64,000 nt of DNA from Solibacillus sp. FSL R5-0449 (GTDB lineage: Bacteria > Bacillota > Bacilli > Bacillales_A > Planococcaceae), in assembly GCF_037975215.1 (NCBI RefSeq), contig NZ_CP150239.1, positions 1,836,001-1,900,000 on the forward strand, read 5' to 3'. Below the pieces are notes generated by a model. The model had not been told where the DNA came from. It made no database searches and saw nothing but the letters and a program-made list of their open reading frames with translations. Within the stretch, counting starts at the first letter, position 1; the number at the start of each line of letters is the position of its first letter. The position numbers and the translations under genes were made by a program. Of the stretch, positions 41,797 through 53,158 are shown piece after piece.

Positions 41797-41869
41797 GGTC
41801 TTGTAGCTCAGTTGGGAGAGCACCACCTCGACAAGGTGGGGGTCGCTGGTTCGAGACCAGTCGGGACCA
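41797..41869 (+). tRNA. tRNA-Val (anticodon GAC)
   Basis: A 73-nt cloverleaf: acceptor GGTCTTG with CGGGACC (two G-T pairs), D arm GCTC/GAGC, anticodon arm CCACC/GGTGG with loop TCGACAA (GAC at 41830-41832), T arm GCTGG/CCAGT with loop TTCGAGA, and discriminator A. CCA is not encoded. A TATACT element 27 bases upstream may be the -10 box. A tRNA single gene beside accessory genes is a typical integration site. Confidence 0.96.
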
Positions 41870-41923
41870 TCAAATTAATAGGCTCGTAAAATCCTTCTTT
41901 TTTTCCTTTTCTAAAATCTTGAC

Positions 41924-41962
41924 AAAAAATCAGTAACCTTTCTAATCGGTTACTGATTTTTT
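41924..41962. terminator. Bidirectional terminator between tRNA-Val and the ABC-3C operon
   Basis: ATCAGTAACC pairs perfectly with GGTTACTGAT, with TTTTTT on both strands. Confidence 0.88.
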
Positions 41963-41977
41963 AGATAGTCTCCCCTA

Positions 41978-43990
41978 TTATTTTAAAGGTTTAATAATAT
42001 AATCCTCACCTAAATCGACTATATTCAAGTTTAAATCTTTTGTCATTTCCTGTATCTCTGCCGGCTCAAGAGAAGTTCCAACAATCGCCTGTCCCTTCGT
42101 TTTTGATAATACTTCAAAAAGCTGCTTTTGACTCTTCACAGCCATTTGCTGCTGACCCGGTTCATCAAAAACCATTAGTCCAGGATGGTTTCCACCATAC
42201 TGCTGACTTGTCTTATAAATAGCTATTACATAAGACCAGATTAATCGGATATTATCGCTTGCCGAAGAATTAAATTTAATATCAAAACCACTTACGATAG
42301 GAGTGTATTTATCATGTGAAATTGCAATTTCATTTGTTTTAATACTGGAAAAACTAAATTCCTTTAACAAGCTTAAAAACTCTTTCTCGAAATAAGCTAG
42401 CTTCTTTTTATCCAGTTCCGAGAAGTAATCTTTCGGCAAGGCTTCCTGTCTGGATAAATAATTTCGCCACTCTTCCTTTACATTATCAAAACGCTGGTCA
42501 ATTTTTTCAAAAGAATTACTTGCATCTTGCAGCTTATTTAATAGGATTTTCAACTCCACCAATTTTTCCATTTCCTTCTTAGTAGGCAATTGTGGATTTT
42601 CACTTAATTCGGATTTATAAAGCCTTAACTCTCTTCTAGCATTATCAAGATGTTCAGAAATTGCATCATGCTTGGATCTCTTATTTTGAATAACTTTTTG
42701 CGATTGCTTTATACCGAAATTGAGTGTATTAATTTGTTCTTTTATAAAAGTTATATTCTCTGATAAATCTAATGGCTGGATACTTGTTTCTGGAGGCATA
42801 AGCGAATCTTCAACATGCTGATTACAAGTAGGGCATACACCAATAGAAAGGCTCGAATCCACCATTGAACCTAATTTGTACAGTTTTTCAGCTTCTTGAT
42901 TTCGTTTTAAATCTATTTCTAAATTTTTAAGGTTTTCAATCATAGAACGATGATTGTTTCTTTCTAAATGTAAATCCTGTTTGATAGAATTTATTTCACT
43001 TTGCAATTGTAAAACAAGCATTTCTTGCTCTTTTACCTTCTTTTCGTACTCTGAGGTAACACTGGATATTTTGACAATATTATAGTTTTCTTTTTCTTTT
43101 ATCGAGCGCTCTAATTGAAATATACGGTCAACAATTGAAACAAGTTTTTTATTCTCATCATACACATTTAACTTCAGCTCCTCTAACAGTGAAGGTTTTT
43201 CAGGAATACTCGTAACTTCCCCATGTATACTGACAACTAATTCTTCTATATCCTGTTTCAATGTAGACCATTTATTTGAAATTAAAGCCCTTTGTATTTT
43301 TAATTCTTCTCTCTCTTTCGTATTCTTGGTAACATCCATGTTCAATAAAAATTCAAATGCCCGTTTGGATAAATCTCTGATACCAAAACCTCCAGAGATA
43401 GGAGAGTAAAAACTGCTCCACCCTTTAGTTTGCTCCACAAAAAATAATGGAAAAAGGGTCTGAATATATAAAATCCTGTCCTTTCCTTCAAATGTAGGTA
43501 CTTCAGGCAAATTCCATTCTAAAAAGCTGGCTAAAAAGGCATGAAATCCTGCTTTCTCTGTTGCAGAACCACTCATATGGACATAAAAATCTTTGGAATT
43601 CACTATTTCTTCTTTTGTGAGCTGAGGTCCAAAATGCACTCTTATTAATTTCTCATCAATGCTAGATGATTTTATCCATCGGGTCAGTGTTATAATATTC
43701 CCTTTTTGATTGGAAATCTCTAGCTGCACTTTGGATTCTAAAATCGGGACATCCTTTTCCAAATATGACAGCTTCTCTTTCAGCACAGGTTTCATGGTTT
43801 TTGCATTTCTTCCACCTAGCATTTCTTCAATGCCCAATACATAAAGTATGGAATTTAAAGTAGAACTTTTCCCTTTTGTATTTTTGGCTCTTAATATATT
43901 AAATCCTGACTGGAATGGAATATCGGTCCCAAATACTCCTTCAGCCGTATCAATCGTTATTTTAAAATAATTCAAATTTATTCGGTTCAT
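41978..43990 (-). CDS. ABC-3C-type system SMC/Rad50-like ATPase
   Basis: A 670-residue ATPase. The N-terminal P-loop is ILRAKNTKGKSSTLNSIL (about residues 31-48). A long coiled coil (about 225-520) is split by a Rad50-like zinc-hook motif, CPTCNQHVEDS (about 385). The C-terminal head has Walker B as LMVFDEPGQQQMAVKSQ (about 610-626) and GTSLEPAEIQ. It overlaps the middle gene by 4 bases (ATGA) and is the last gene of a three-gene operon, with terminator. The set of ATPase, small middle component and nuclease-like protein is that of ABC-three-component (ABC-3C) conflict systems; the antiphage role is inferred. Confidence 0.82.
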   Translation of the reverse strand: MNRINLNYFKITIDTAEGVFGTDIPFQSGFNILRAKNTKGKSSTLNSILYVLGIEEMLGGRNAKTMKPVLKEKLSYLEKDVPILESKVQLEISNQKGNIITLTRWIKSSSIDEKLIRVHFGPQLTKEEIVNSKDFYVHMSGSATEKAGFHAFLASFLEWNLPEVPTFEGKDRILYIQTLFPLFFVEQTKGWSSFYSPISGGFGIRDLSKRAFEFLLNMDVTKNTKEREELKIQRALISNKWSTLKQDIEELVVSIHGEVTSIPEKPSLLEELKLNVYDENKKLVSIVDRIFQLERSIKEKENYNIVKISSVTSEYEKKVKEQEMLVLQLQSEINSIKQDLHLERNNHRSMIENLKNLEIDLKRNQEAEKLYKLGSMVDSSLSIGVCPTCNQHVEDSLMPPETSIQPLDLSENITFIKEQINTLNFGIKQSQKVIQNKRSKHDAISEHLDNARRELRLYKSELSENPQLPTKKEMEKLVELKILLNKLQDASNSFEKIDQRFDNVKEEWRNYLSRQEALPKDYFSELDKKKLAYFEKEFLSLLKEFSFSSIKTNEIAISHDKYTPIVSGFDIKFNSSASDNIRLIWSYVIAIYKTSQQYGGNHPGLMVFDEPGQQQMAVKSQKQLFEVLSKTKGQAIVGTSLEPAEIQEMTKDLNLNIVDLGEDYIIKPLK

Positions 43991-46548: not shown

Positions 46549-47185
46549 CTATTTTAACGATTGTTCATAAGCTTCCATTCCTTGCAGACGAAGCTTACAT
46601 GCTGGGCACTCCCCGCATCCATCCGCAATTATTCCGTTATAGCATGTCAATGTTTTGTGACGTACAAAGTCAAACGCACCTAGCTGATCTGCTAAAGCCC
46701 ATGTCTCGGCTTTATTAATCCACATGAGTGGCGTATGAATAACAAATGATGTGTCCATCGATAAATTTAATGTGACATTTAAGGATTTCACAAAGGCATC
46801 GCGACAATCTGGATAGCCACTAAAATCGGTTTCACATACACCTGTCACAATATGCTTCGCGCCAATTTGGCTTGCTAAAATTCACTAAATTACGACCCGG
46901 CACAAACGTAGAGGGGAGCTCGCCTGCCACGCCTTCTTGTATTTCGATATCGTCACGCGTCAAAGCATTCGGTGCTAATTGATTTAAGAGCGACATATTT
47001 AAAATATGATGTCGTACGTTCAACTCCTGTGCAATCTGTTTCGCACACTCAATCTCGAGTGCATGCCGTTGTCCATAATCAAAAGTAACGACTTCAACCT
47101 CTTTAAAGTTTTTTAAAGCCCAAAACAAACAAGTTGTACTATCTTGCCCGCCACTAAATACAACAACGGCTTTCTCATGTTTCAT
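46549..47185 (-). pseudogene. queC: queC (7-cyano-7-deazaguanine synthase), frameshifted
   Basis: The 5' frame (47185 down to about 46880) gives [20 protein letters not shown], the PP-loop, and continues to [11 protein letters not shown]. The next frame resumes with [17 protein letters not shown] at about 46875 and runs to the zinc site [11 protein letters not shown] and stop. Compared with normal QueC (VPGRN-FLSFA-x-A) about six residues are missing at the joint, so a deletion of about 17 bases is likely. The enzyme that makes preQ0 should be inactive. The remaining parts are well conserved, so the lesion is recent, or an assembly error. Confidence 0.85.
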
Positions 47186-49033: not shown

Positions 49034-49117
49034 AATTGCTCCCTACGTCAGTATTAACTGTCAGGTTCTAAGGGTCAGGTTTTAACCTTCTCAACACGAA
49101 TGTGTCCCCCTGCAATT
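49034..49117 (-). promoter_or_regulatory. TPP riboswitch (gene-proximal copy)
   Basis: Minus strand: P1 AATTGC/GCAATT, then GGGGGACACA, TTGAGAAGG, ACCTGACCCTTAGAACCTGA, and AGTTAATACTGACGTAGGGAGC. The blocks TGAGA, ACCTGA and CGTAGGGA are the conserved core of THI-box aptamers. It is the second of a tandem pair. Confidence 0.92.
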
Positions 49118-49131
49118 AAAGTATTTGCATA

Positions 49132-49160
49132 AGAAAAGCTCCACGTAAATTACGCGGAGC
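49132..49160 (-). terminator. Terminator of the distal TPP riboswitch
   Basis: GCTCCGCGTAA pairs with TTACGTGGAGC (one G-T pair), then TTTTCTT on the minus strand. Confidence 0.82.
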
Positions 49161-49190
49161 CATAGTAAGTACAGAAAAATAGATATGTAC

Positions 49191-49270
49191 TTTGCTCCCT
49201 ACGTCCGTATTAACGGTCAGGTTCTAAGGGTCAGGTTTTACCTTCTCAACACATTGTGTCCCCCTGCAAA
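49191..49270 (-). promoter_or_regulatory. TPP riboswitch (promoter-proximal copy)
   Basis: Minus strand: P1 TTTGC/GCAAA, GGGGGACACAATGTG, TTGAGAAGG, ACCTGACCCTTAGAACCTGA, CGTTAATACGGACGTAGGGAGC. The core is almost identical to the copy at 49034-49117, which implies a duplication kept by selection. It has its own terminator. Confidence 0.93.
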
Positions 49271-49549: not shown

Positions 49550-50002
49550 TTATATTATCTTAATTTTCTTTAACTGTGATTCTCTTGTTATCTCTCTTTT
49601 CCCGTGGGTAATTTCGTTATAAGTATAATAAGTATGGGACTGCATATTACCTTCTTTTGGAATTGGTAAATGGTTCAAATTCTTTTCGATTTTTAGAATA
49701 TAAAACTTATAATCTTCCTTTTCACCAAATCCAAAAGTATATTTCCGTTCATTTATATAACCTCGAAGTCGCTCTTTAATATCAGTGTTTAAAAAGCTGA
49801 TCTGCTCATATATATTTTGTTCTTCAGGCTTTAAAACTAGCTCATTTTCAATACTGTATAATGTATCCATAACACCACCGACTTTTCTGAACGTCATATA
49901 TTGTGCTTCCTTATATTTCCTCGGATGAGGATGGGCGTGTATTAGATACTTTTTAATCAAATCCATTGTTTGTGCAGCTGGTAAGGATATAACTTCTTTC
50001 AT
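49550..50002 (-). CDS. Uncharacterised third protein of the McrBC-type operon
   Basis: A 150-residue soluble protein that I do not recognise. Its ATG overlaps the mcrC stop by 4 bases and follows GGGGGTAAAT. It reads KYLIHAHPHPRKYKEAQYMTFRKVGGVMDTLY near the N-terminus and YTYNEITHGKREITRESQLKKIKII at the end. HAHPHPR gives a histidine cluster, and the tail is basic, so metal and nucleic acid binding are possible. Because of the coupling, it is probably part of the restriction complex or its immunity/regulatory protein. I see no nuclease motif. Confidence 0.55.
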   Translation of the reverse strand: MKEVISLPAAQTMDLIKKYLIHAHPHPRKYKEAQYMTFRKVGGVMDTLYSIENELVLKPEEQNIYEQISFLNTDIKERLRGYINERKYTFGFGEKEDYKFYILKIEKNLNHLPIPKEGNMQSHTYYTYNEITHGKREITRESQLKKIKII

Positions 50003-51066
50003 TGATTTACCCCCTTCATTAATGCAAAAAATTGATGAGCATATGCTAATAGGTCTTTCTTTATACCTTTAAAATCTTGCTGTAAATTTAGAGATACGAC
50101 ATAAATTGGATTACCTTTAATGTGATAAATATGATTTGGTTGATTTAATGCGGTAGTTTTCGCATAAAGTAACATACCTGCTACCGTTTCACCTGGATCA
50201 TTTTTCCAATTATTTATATACGTAAATATTTGATAAAGATTACCAGATTTTTGTTTTGCAACCCCACCTTTAAACCTTGCTACCATATTCTCAGAATAAA
50301 ATTTAGTATCCACTATCAAAGTCATTTTATCTTTCTTAAGTACAAGATCAGTTTGCATAATCGGTAAAGCATCTGTGAATTCATCATCAACATTCCAATG
50401 AATTTGGGGGTGAGATACATTATATTTCGTTTCACGTTTGAAAAATTCATAGATGAACTTTTCATATAAAGTTGATAGTCTTTGTTCATCTTGAACCTCT
50501 TTCATTAGTTGAGATGTAGAACTTTCATCAAATAATAATTGCTCATATAGATATCTACATACATCTACAATAAACTGGTAGCGAATATCTTGGCGGTTAT
50601 ATCTCACGTTTTTCCATAGCTTCAAATCTAACTCTACATCTGATACCTCTGTAAAATACGCCAGCAAACCGTAAAACAATCTACGCATTTTTCGACTTAT
50701 TTTATTTGAACGAGATAGGTAAACGAGTGTCGCTTTAATAATTTGATTCAACAATATATTTTCTGAGAATTCATCATAAACCACTGAGATTTTCTTATTA
50801 ACCAATGTATTTTTCTTTATCGTGGAATTGATATCAATTTTCCCCTTAATAACATTGGAAGTCTCTTCAATGCTTATATAATCTTTACTTAATCCTCCGC
50901 GAATCAAAACAGGTATACCAATCATTAAAATTTCTGCGTATAGCTCTTTGACGTCCTCAAACTTTTCTGTCCCGATTTGTTTATACTCAGAAAGACTTAA
51001 CGTTTGATATGCATAGGAAAGCATATAGTATATATTACGAATAGGAATATTATTATTTCTCTCCAT
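49999..51066 (-). CDS. mcrC: McrC-like nuclease subunit
   Basis: A 355-residue protein of the McrBC 5-methylcytosine-system McrC family. The N-terminal part carries IPIRNIYYMLSYAYQTL, found in most McrC proteins, and IKGKIDINSTIKKN (about 92-105). The PD-(D/E)XK nuclease site is at the C-terminal part: MQTDLVLKKDKMTLIVDTKFY (about 248-268), in which D, then D-x-K are the catalytic residues. The gene overlaps the mcrB end by 14 bases. McrC joins McrB rings to cut modified DNA. Confidence 0.9.
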   Translation of the reverse strand: MERNNNIPIRNIYYMLSYAYQTLSLSEYKQIGTEKFEDVKELYAEILMIGIPVLIRGGLSKDYISIEETSNVIKGKIDINSTIKKNTLVNKKISVVYDEFSENILLNQIIKATLVYLSRSNKISRKMRRLFYGLLAYFTEVSDVELDLKLWKNVRYNRQDIRYQFIVDVCRYLYEQLLFDESSTSQLMKEVQDEQRLSTLYEKFIYEFFKRETKYNVSHPQIHWNVDDEFTDALPIMQTDLVLKKDKMTLIVDTKFYSENMVARFKGGVAKQKSGNLYQIFTYINNWKNDPGETVAGMLLYAKTTALNQPNHIYHIKGNPIYVVSLNLQQDFKGIKKDLLAYAHQFFALMKGVNQ

Positions 51067-53158
51067 CGTAACAACCTCTTAGTCGCTCAGCCCAATGATT
51101 TACCTTCTGCTCATCATCAAACCAATACTCGAATAACTGTGGAATAATTTCATATTCAATAACTTCCTCTACTCGATTTGTAGCATCTACTTTATAAGCA
51201 TCCCCTACAAAATAGCTATGTCCAATTTGAAAGCCTGTCCCTAGTTCTTCAACAATTTGATTATTTAAAGTTTTGATTTCATCAATGATACGTTTTAAAA
51301 CGTCTGGATTATTTAATTCATTTACATACAACTTAAATGTCTCATTTTGGAACGCCGGTTTAATTTCAAAAAACGAGAATCTTCTTCTAAGTGCATAATC
51401 TAATAAAGCTAAACTTCTATCTGCCGTATTCATCATTCCAATGATATATAAATTCGAAGGTACAGAAAACTTCTCGTTAGAATAAAGAAGATTGATTTGC
51501 TCACCTCGCTTATCAGCTTCGATTAGCATCATCAATTCCCCGAATATTTTACTCATATTCCCGCGATTAATTTCATCAATAACAAAAAAGTAATCTCGTT
51601 CTGGATCTCGTGCTGCTTTTCTAGCAAACTTCACAAACGGACCTTGTTTCAGTTCAAATCCATCCCCTTCAGCTTTTGGACGGAACCCTTCAATGAAGTC
51701 TTCATAACTATAGCTTTGGTGGAACTGAACCATATGGATACGAGTTTCATCCTTCTCTTCCATCATGACATACGCTAACCGTTTAGCAATAAATGTTTTA
51801 CCTACTCCTGGTGCCCCTTTTAAAATAAGATTCTTCTTATTTTCAAGTAGAGAAATTAGACGTACAAGCTCCTTCTTATCAATAAATACAGCCGAAAGAA
51901 AATCATCCATTGTAAAATTTTCATTTTCTTGTACAGTAGGTTTAGATTCAATAAAACGAATGTAGTAATCAATTGAACTGCCTGAAACGCCTTTATATTT
52001 TTTGTAGGAATCATCTGATAAAACGATATCTTTTAACAGTTTCAGTTGCTCAATATCTGATTCACCAAAAATGGCAGCTTCAAAATGGCGTTCTATTTCC
52101 TTTAATGCATTTACTTTTTGCTTAACTGTTTTATCGTTTAAGCTAGCTCCTGTATCTGTAATTTGATTGGATAACCAAGTTTGAAACTCATTTACTTCAG
52201 CAATTTTTGGATCAATAAAATCTTCATTCATTACTTTGTCTATTTCTTGAATAAAATTTGGATAATTATTTAAACATGTTAATGTTTTTTGAGCAAAAGT
52301 CTGATGTAGCTCCCACTTTCCGACTTGAAGCCACTTTACTGTTCTTCTATGTTTATACTCTGATGCTTCATAATCGAAGTAGTAATCTCCCGTAACAACT
52401 CCGCGTGCGAGAATTTTTTTTATTCCCTCTTTCACATATATGATGTCGCCTATTTTAATGTCGCTATAGAAATCCCACACAGCCTTTGTATCATGAACAG
52501 GCCGCACTCCATCTGCTCTTTGCTCTGATATTCTTCGTTCAACAGCTTCTTTTAAACTATAGTTCTTTATATCACCTAAATAGTCCCAACCAATGGCAAT
52601 TACATTATCGTTGTGAAACTGCTCCCATAATCTAGAGTTTTCACCCGGTGAAATCAACCAATAATTAACGCCTTTATCAATTTCATCTTCTTGATTCGCA
52701 ATTTTCTTCTCTTTTTTAGGATAAATTAACGTAGGATTTTCAGCATAATATAAAAATATTAAATACGAGCGAATTAAAACACCCCAGTCAGGTATCCCAC
52801 CTAAATTATCCGGTTTACTTCTTACGCCTCGATTATATTCATCTTCCGCATAATTTTGTCTAAATTGAATTCTTGTTGTACCAAACTTTTCAGGATAGTG
52901 AGGCGTACCTCTACCCATCACAAATTTCTCAATATCCTCATCATTTTGTTCTGTCATTTGTTGATAAATATCTTTAAATTCTGAGTAAGATTGATACTCA
53001 AAGAAATTTCCTTTATAACCGATAGCTAATCCGAACTTTTCTAACAGTTGTCCAAGTTTTTCAAGATATGGTGCGTACCAAACCCCTGTTTTTTCCCCTA
53101 AGTTTTCCGTCACCCAATCTTTATATTTTTCTTTTTGATTATTCACAACATCATTCAT
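51053..53158 (-). CDS. mcrB: McrB-like AAA+ GTPase with EVE-like modified-base reader
   Basis: A 701-residue protein in three parts. Residues 1-150 are of unknown fold. About 165-310 look like an EVE/PUA-like domain: YWLISPGENSRLWEQFHNDN, VIAIGWDYLGDI, then IGDIIYVKEGIKKILARGVV. The AAA+ domain at about 430-650 has Walker A LKGAPGVGKTFIAKRLAYV, Walker B FFVIDEINRGNMSKIFGEL and the McrB signature IGMMNTADRSLALLDYALRRRF. EVE domains bind modified cytosines, so this is a type IV restriction system against modified phage DNA. GGAGGTAGGCT precedes the ATG. Confidence 0.9.
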   Translation of the reverse strand: MNDVVNNQKEKYKDWVTENLGEKTGVWYAPYLEKLGQLLEKFGLAIGYKGNFFEYQSYSEFKDIYQQMTEQNDEDIEKFVMGRGTPHYPEKFGTTRIQFRQNYAEDEYNRGVRSKPDNLGGIPDWGVLIRSYLIFLYYAENPTLIYPKKEKKIANQEDEIDKGVNYWLISPGENSRLWEQFHNDNVIAIGWDYLGDIKNYSLKEAVERRISEQRADGVRPVHDTKAVWDFYSDIKIGDIIYVKEGIKKILARGVVTGDYYFDYEASEYKHRRTVKWLQVGKWELHQTFAQKTLTCLNNYPNFIQEIDKVMNEDFIDPKIAEVNEFQTWLSNQITDTGASLNDKTVKQKVNALKEIERHFEAAIFGESDIEQLKLLKDIVLSDDSYKKYKGVSGSSIDYYIRFIESKPTVQENENFTMDDFLSAVFIDKKELVRLISLLENKKNLILKGAPGVGKTFIAKRLAYVMMEEKDETRIHMVQFHQSYSYEDFIEGFRPKAEGDGFELKQGPFVKFARKAARDPERDYFFVIDEINRGNMSKIFGELMMLIEADKRGEQINLLYSNEKFSVPSNLYIIGMMNTADRSLALLDYALRRRFSFFEIKPAFQNETFKLYVNELNNPDVLKRIIDEIKTLNNQIVEELGTGFQIGHSYFVGDAYKVDATNRVEEVIEYEIIPQLFEYWFDDEQKVNHWAERLRGCYDGEK

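Follow-up and report, generated by a model that had tools for sequence, protein, structure and literature searches.

The locus described here raises two questions: why a gene annotated as a 3-oxoacyl-ACP reductase lies behind two TPP riboswitches, and what its product, an SDR oxidoreductase, might do. It is located in a window of 64,000 nucleotides from Solibacillus sp. FSL R5-0449 (contig NZ_CP150239.1, positions 1,836,001 to 1,900,000), to which all coordinates refer unless a locus (L) of another genome (G) is named.

Two TPP riboswitches in series precede the SDR gene

Covariance-model search for the THI element revealed two TPP aptamers on the minus strand, which fit the pair that a first-pass annotation had placed at 49034..49270. 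The leader and the genes behind it comprise the following features.

49316-49288, minus strand: promoter-like pair (-35 TTGTTT at 49316-49311, extended -10 TGA-TAGAAT at 49293-49288, 17-nt spacer)
49275-49179, minus strand: TPP riboswitch aptamer 1 (Rfam RF00059, 67.1 bits, E 5.1e-11)
49161-49137, minus strand: intrinsic terminator 1 (11-pair stem, then a T-run; consensus scan and folding)
49121-49023, minus strand: TPP riboswitch aptamer 2 (Rfam RF00059, 69.6 bits, E 1.3e-11)
49010-48985, element to 48981, minus strand: intrinsic terminator 2 (stem-loop and T-run; folding)
48871-48104, minus strand: SDR oxidoreductase of 255 aa (NF006393/PRK08642, Pfam PF13561)
47963-47917, minus strand: preQ1 riboswitch (Rfam RF00522, 41.8 bits against 39), heading the next unit, from queF onward

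Both aptamers are full length (model positions 1-105 of 105), score above the RF00059 gathering score of 54.3 and retain the core letters UGAGA, GAACCUG and CGUAGGGA. Terminator 1 was found by the consensus scan as well as by folding. Terminator 2 is absent from the list of that scan and was found by folding alone, we think because G-T pairs at the base of its stem leave too few T's. When the 3' arm of either terminator was blocked in folding, its 5' arm paired with GUAGGGAGC at the 3' edge of the aptamer, a predicted antiterminator. The leader therefore contains two complete switches for the same ligand class, each with an aptamer and an expression platform (the second by folding only), and its predicted layout is that of a classical OFF switch, twice in series. 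The promoter-like pair ahead of aptamer 1 was picked by eye and is not among the promoters of the consensus scan; it is kept in six of the seven aligned leaders, that of the window included.

The tandem arrangement as such is an already known architecture. According to PMC12121620 (citing Welz & Breaker 2007) and PMC9481103, tandem TPP riboswitches of Bacillus anthracis precede tenA, and each controls termination in vitro; RNA-seq data show only the upstream switch acting (PMC12121620). The parallel drawn in the first-pass annotation is thus borne out, in that both leaders have two full TPP aptamers with their own terminators on one transcription unit, as does the tenA leader of the source genome. 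The difference is that the genome of the window has a further tandem before a single SDR gene. Sharper switching by the window tandem, as the annotation had supposed, would rest by analogy on the B. anthracis precedent.

As the preQ1 riboswitch before queF is the next feature downstream, the SDR is a lone gene in a local sense. The consensus scan lists no terminator between the SDR stop and this riboswitch, so read-through is possible. The earlier description of a lone SDR gene holds at the window locus; it does not extend to the fetched homologues, most of which have thi, NtaA or LuxEC partners.

Six TPP aptamers score above the cut-off in the 3.58-Mb single-contig source genome. Two of them form the tandem of the SDR leader and two form another in front of tenA-thiM-thiD-thiE; thiW and thiT are preceded by one each. 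These tandem leaders can be aligned over their whole length and are paralogous. The genome encodes TenA, ThiM, ThiD, ThiE, ThiT and ThiW. Profile search gave no match to ThiC and no full match to ThiG, for which a 30-bit partial match covers 50 of 247 model positions; a similar partial match occurs in most genomes that lack a full ThiG. Since ThiC and full ThiG matches are missing, both thiamine halves are probably obtained by import or salvage.

The SDR differs from FabG in profile score and active site

The SDR protein is a clear member of NCBIfam NF006393, named 3-oxoacyl-ACP reductase (403.7 bits against a cut-off of 292), and its closest named relatives are SDRs of a Lysinibacillus MAG (89%) and Kurthia massiliensis (83%). 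The family name would make it an acyl-ACP-reducing enzyme, whereas its genomic context and active site suggest a role in thiamine metabolism. Against the FabG equivalog model TIGR01830, the SDR scores 143.3 bits, below the cut-off of 297.75, compared to 361.1 bits for the bona fide FabG of the same genome, to which it is 31% identical. The two share the SDR family, the Tyr-x3-Lys motif and an NADP-type nucleotide motif, which suggests that the SDR prefers NADPH.

They differ in the active site, whose signature in the window SDR is IGTNLFQNPVVAYHEYTTAK. Twenty-one positions are identical in all but at most one of 63 main-family rows, with residues absent from four FabG-like proteins, and many of them fall in the stretch GTNL.Q.PVV.YH.Y, where Thr replaces the catalytic Ser of FabG. 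The stretch is retained in 15 aligned plasmid SDRs, with variation in those of the LuxEC type. In the sister subfamily described below, the catalytic position is Ser or Thr. Moreover, the window SDR has E139 and Y182 at the positions of R129 and R172, the ACP-docking arginines of E. coli FabG. Arg occurs at the R172 position in 0 of 71 homologue rows and at the R129 position in five, compared to Arg at both positions in three of seven other SDRs of the same alignment. Profile search of the PDB with alignment A2 gave no match at E 1e-70. A FabG reading of the SDR was rejected on the TIGR01830 score, the active site and the neighbour genes. The suspicion of the first-pass annotation that the name 3-oxoacyl-ACP reductase is probably wrong is supported on all these counts.

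TPP riboswitches recur at SDR loci of relatives

NF006393 matches above the cut-off were found in 29 of 151 family genomes and 52 of 398 class genomes. All 29 family loci and 37 of 45 further places in the class (Bacilli) were fetched. The other eight (G287, G306, G351, G359, G392, G440, G453 and G469) were not fetched full-width, and a TPP switch is seen in the short loci of G287 and G453. A 30th family place above the cut-off, the truncated SDR copy L072 of G083, is included neither in the 29 nor in the tree. Our own covariance model, built from 29 aptamers, was run over 72 loci. As it contains aptamers of these same loci, Rfam serves as the independent check. A switch was counted as heading the SDR operon when only same-strand genes lie between the two.

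A TPP riboswitch heads the SDR operon at 27 of the 29 family loci, 26 by script and L059 by eye, because its ThiG is hidden by an opposite-strand ORF. The same holds for 27 of the 37 further Bacilli loci (26 by script; L130 via the overlapping L145). Rfam confirms each of the 27 family switches, 18 of them lying within 1.5 kb and nine further upstream. Seventeen of the 27 class switches were scanned with Rfam and all pass; ten were assigned by our own model (70.8-95 bits). As a control, 28 other SDR genes were examined, and none of the 28 has a TPP riboswitch within 5 kb, judged by the positions among the matches listed. One observation from the 14 control genomes is that Corynebacterium glutamicum alone scores above the NF006393 cut-off.

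The linkage extends to plasmid records of named organisms, of which 19 carry the SDR and 10 were fetched; a TPP riboswitch is present at eight of these ten loci, which span three phyla. The order is TPP-thiM-thiE-thiD-SDR in Gemmobacter and Neorhizobium, TPP-thiM...thiD-SDR in Rhizobium lusitanum (an unannotated record whose genes were named in this analysis), TPP-SDR-LLM in Pseudochrobactrum, Rhodococcus and Mesobacillus, and TPP-SDR in Exiguobacterium. Niallia taxi has two TPP switches followed, after a 600-nt gap, by an NCS2 permease, LuxE, LuxC and the SDR. Two Caballeronia records have neither a TPP switch nor thi neighbours. In the family and class set, no switch was found at L054, L056, L098-L103, L125, L127, L128 and L129; the contig of L129 is cut within the operon. 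The SDRs at these loci and in the two Caballeronia records retain the signature or nearly so. The switchless loci (2 of 29, 10 of 37 and 2 of 10 in the family, class and plasmid sets) indicate that the enzyme is not always TPP-controlled. Nevertheless, the recurrence across these sets agrees with the placement of the window SDR in the thiamine regulon, which had been proposed from the window alone.

The tandem arrangement is old in the SDR clade

A tree of 78 rows, built by a quick method, places the window SDR in a clade of 12 (SH-aLRT 99), and all 12 SDRs are preceded by two TPP switches, which suggests that the tandem is old in this clade. Six of these SDRs belong to thiM/thiD/thiE or thiD operons. 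The only other two-switch locus in the scripted survey is L072, with a truncated SDR of the same clade; outside the survey, the LuxEC-type locus of Niallia likewise has two switches. L072 (G083:C1:1516700-1529300) is a second tandem-TPP-SDR copy in a genome that also has a full-length one.

The SDR associates with thi genes, an NtaA-type monooxygenase or LuxE-LuxC

Neighbours were named by similarity to reference proteins identified in this analysis, except that ThiG was named by profile search, and that ThiS, SsuB and SsuC are putative names given by position. The SDR shares its locus with thiM-thiD-thiE genes in ten cases (L044, L047-L050, L053, L105, L107, L124 and L126), among which L053 has thiD only and L124 and L126 have thiM only; the order SDR-ThiM-ThiD-ThiE is found in L105 and L107. 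In the TPP-TPP-thi-SDR operon of Kurthia, a 103-aa protein (L044:3432-3743) may resemble thiamine-binding proteins of the MTH1187/YkoF type.

Downstream of the SDR, an NtaA-type monooxygenase is encoded in 27 of 66 loci, 12 from the family and 15 from the class. This FMN monooxygenase of the NtaA/DmoA family (e.g. L062, L109, L149 and L152) is mostly under the same TPP switch, and a gene of this type also follows the SDR in the Pseudochrobactrum, Rhodococcus and Mesobacillus records. Four loci (L059, L060, L066 and L068) combine both kinds of partner in the operon tenI-thiO-thiS-thiG-thiF-SDR-NtaA; thiS was not seen in L059, and a 109-aa ORF intervenes between SDR and NtaA in L066.

A sister subfamily of SDRs, near or below the NF006393 cut-off, closes LuxE-LuxC-SsuBCA-SDR or LuxE-LuxC-SDR operons (L073, L074 and L130-L134). 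One of these has thiM behind it (L133), and another has the thiazole operon in front (L145+L130). Our own model detects a TPP switch at all five sister loci below the cut-off, although the match in L133 is weak (E 0.0009); Rfam passes four of the five, with L133 under its score. TPP-controlled operons of this kind (including L157-L162) occur in Bacillota, Azospirillum and Pantoea. Among plasmid records, LuxC was found in 27 and six were fetched; five have a TPP riboswitch above the Rfam score, and that of Priestia was detected by our own model (30.4 bits, E 2.6e-6). Five of the six carry annotations for a fatty acid-CoA ligase, an acyl-CoA reductase, in some a transporter, and finally an SDR or 3-oxoacyl-ACP reductase; the remaining record is unannotated.

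The LuxE and LuxC homologues (PF04443 and PF05893) correspond to the acid-activating and acyl-reducing pair of bacterial luminescence, here followed by a reductase. The operons differ from those of luminescence in their TPP control and in their transporters, and no luciferase is annotated in the fetched stretches of five named LuxE-LuxC records. The L073 operon encodes an NMT1/THI5-like binding protein, whose nine PDB matches include the formylaminopyrimidine-binding protein and THI5; in L134 and L157, the alternative transporter is NCS2. Altogether, these operons are a candidate acid-to-aldehyde-to-alcohol salvage route. In addition, our own model gives low scores (24-40 bits) for the TPP aptamers that precede five LuxE-LuxC operons.

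L073:11809-11918: low-scoring TPP aptamer, passes Rfam
L132:3289-3399: low-scoring TPP aptamer, passes Rfam
L134:1858-1969: low-scoring TPP aptamer, passes Rfam
L133:12000-12109: low-scoring TPP aptamer, does not pass Rfam
L158:5796-5902: low-scoring TPP aptamer, does not pass Rfam

The SDR is most likely a salvage aldehyde reductase

Our preferred reading, which we consider probable, is that TPP represses the transcription unit through two serial OFF switches and that the product of the unit is a non-FabG SDR, most likely an aldehyde reductase of salvage. As sequence and folding suggest, at low TPP GUAGGGAGC of each aptamer would pair with the 5' arm of the terminator and RNA polymerase would pass both gates, whereas at high TPP the closing of either aptamer would allow its terminator to form. 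The SDR would reduce the aldehyde of a damaged thiamine moiety to an alcohol that the salvage kinases accept. In relatives, the LuxE/LuxC homologues may produce the aldehyde from a carboxylic acid, or the NtaA-type monooxygenase may release it by oxidative cleavage; the window locus has the reductase alone, with neither partner. Since relatives of the gene are clustered with vitamin B1 genes in bacteria of several groups, the SDR probably helps to recycle broken thiamine pieces. The first-pass annotation had left a role in thiamine synthesis, salvage or TPP-linked metabolism; on inference from sequence, salvage is retained and the other two are not favored.

The readings that compete with a salvage reductase fare differently. 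It is very unlikely that the annotation is right and that the gene encodes a spare 3-oxoacyl-ACP reductase, thiamine-controlled because TPP enzymes supply acyl precursors: the SDR fold family, the 31% identity and the NCBIfam name speak for it, but the genome has a true FabG, Arg is missing from the docking positions, and the named neighbours are thi, NtaA or LuxEC rather than fab genes. Conversion or detoxification of a compound of TPP-linked carbon metabolism, yielding no thiamine piece, would account for the homologues that lack both a switch and a nameable thi, NtaA or LuxEC neighbour (L098-L103, L151 and L156); given the recurrent linkage to thiM/thiD/thiE and the thiazole operon, we regard it as improbable. 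We find it hardly credible that the tandem arose by recent copying of the tenA leader to a site before an unrelated SDR. The alignment of the two leaders and the truncated second copy in G083 would fit such an event, but not the tandem in 12 of 12 clade members, the thi operons of half of these, or the single TPP switches before homologues in other phyla. Chance placement of the leader was likewise rejected on its conservation across loci, clade and other phyla. A point against salvage itself is that the SDR does not track loss of ThiC or ThiG, as might be expected of a rescue enzyme. In a sample of 230 genomes, with membership inferred from genome handle numbers, ThiC is present in 18 of 31 SDR genomes and 108 of 199 others, and ThiG in 23 of 31 and 140 of 199, with no association for either.

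As to the substrate of the proposed salvage reductase, we lean weakly and provisionally to a pyrimidine aldehyde, which would give HMP for ThiD. The LuxE-LuxC operons tested encode NMT1/THI5-like or NCS2 transporters, which look pyrimidine- or nucleobase-type, and no ThiC match was found in four genomes with a thiazole operon and SDR-NtaA (G088, G097, G105 and G142), which suggests that HMP is what these lack. Service to the thiazole branch, by reduction of 2-(4-methylthiazol-5-yl)acetaldehyde or a related carbonyl to HET for phosphorylation by ThiM, seems rather unlikely, but it has evidence of its own. Among ThiC, ThiG and ThiM, only ThiM tracks the SDR, which favors thiazole over our first choice. 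The signal is modest: ThiM occurs in 49 of 52 SDR genomes of the class and 263 of 346 others (Fisher p 0.002, relatedness ignored), and in 29 of 29 and 103 of 122 in the family, where two weak matches were scored absent and some counted matches lie under the curated cut-off. Furthermore, ThiM adjoins the SDR in several loci, without ThiD in L124, L126 and the LuxEC operon L133, and the SDR lies inside the thiazole synthesis operon in L059, L060, L066, L068 and L130+L145. Against the thiazole branch, no ThiM match was found in three of the 52 SDR genomes (G199, G227 and G288), nor in the sister-type G249.

Viewed more broadly, a place in vitamin B1 metabolism is very probable for this family, despite its label as a lipid enzyme. 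It may, although we suggest this only tentatively, take part in a widespread TPP-controlled route for over-oxidised thiamine fragments, in which imported pyrimidine or thiazole carboxylic acids (activated and reduced via LuxE/LuxC) or NtaA-cleaved fragments yield an aldehyde that the dedicated SDR would turn into an alcohol for ThiD or ThiM; the window would then hold the reductase-only form behind a tandem switch. To our knowledge, textbook accounts of thiamine salvage do not include the reactions of the NtaA-type monooxygenase or of LuxE-LuxC with its transporter. Rodionov et al. reportedly described oarX, a 3-oxoacyl-ACP reductase homologue controlled by a THI element, in 2002, and such a link may date from then; among the literature matches listed for oarX, none is related. 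Among the papers listed, we recognised none that treats this SDR as TPP-controlled; the gene may be included in the lists behind PMC3766115. The RNA part of the locus is ordinary and the gene is its interesting part, and the partners of the SDR family outline candidate salvage reactions. Reassigning the family would affect genome-based prediction of thiamine dependence, and the analysis gives a short list of candidate substrates.

Genes flanking the locus

Directly upstream of the TPP leader lies a McrBC-like restriction locus (PF10117, AAA_5; 49550-53158, minus strand), which includes a 150-aa protein with no Pfam match at E 1e-5. An Rfam HPnc0260 match (41834-42006, minus strand) is antisense to part of the tRNA at 41797-41869 and is probably spurious. 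In addition, queC is split into two ORFs of 117 and 99 aa (46549-47185, minus strand), compared to a single one of 217 aa in the relative at L057:4412-5065.
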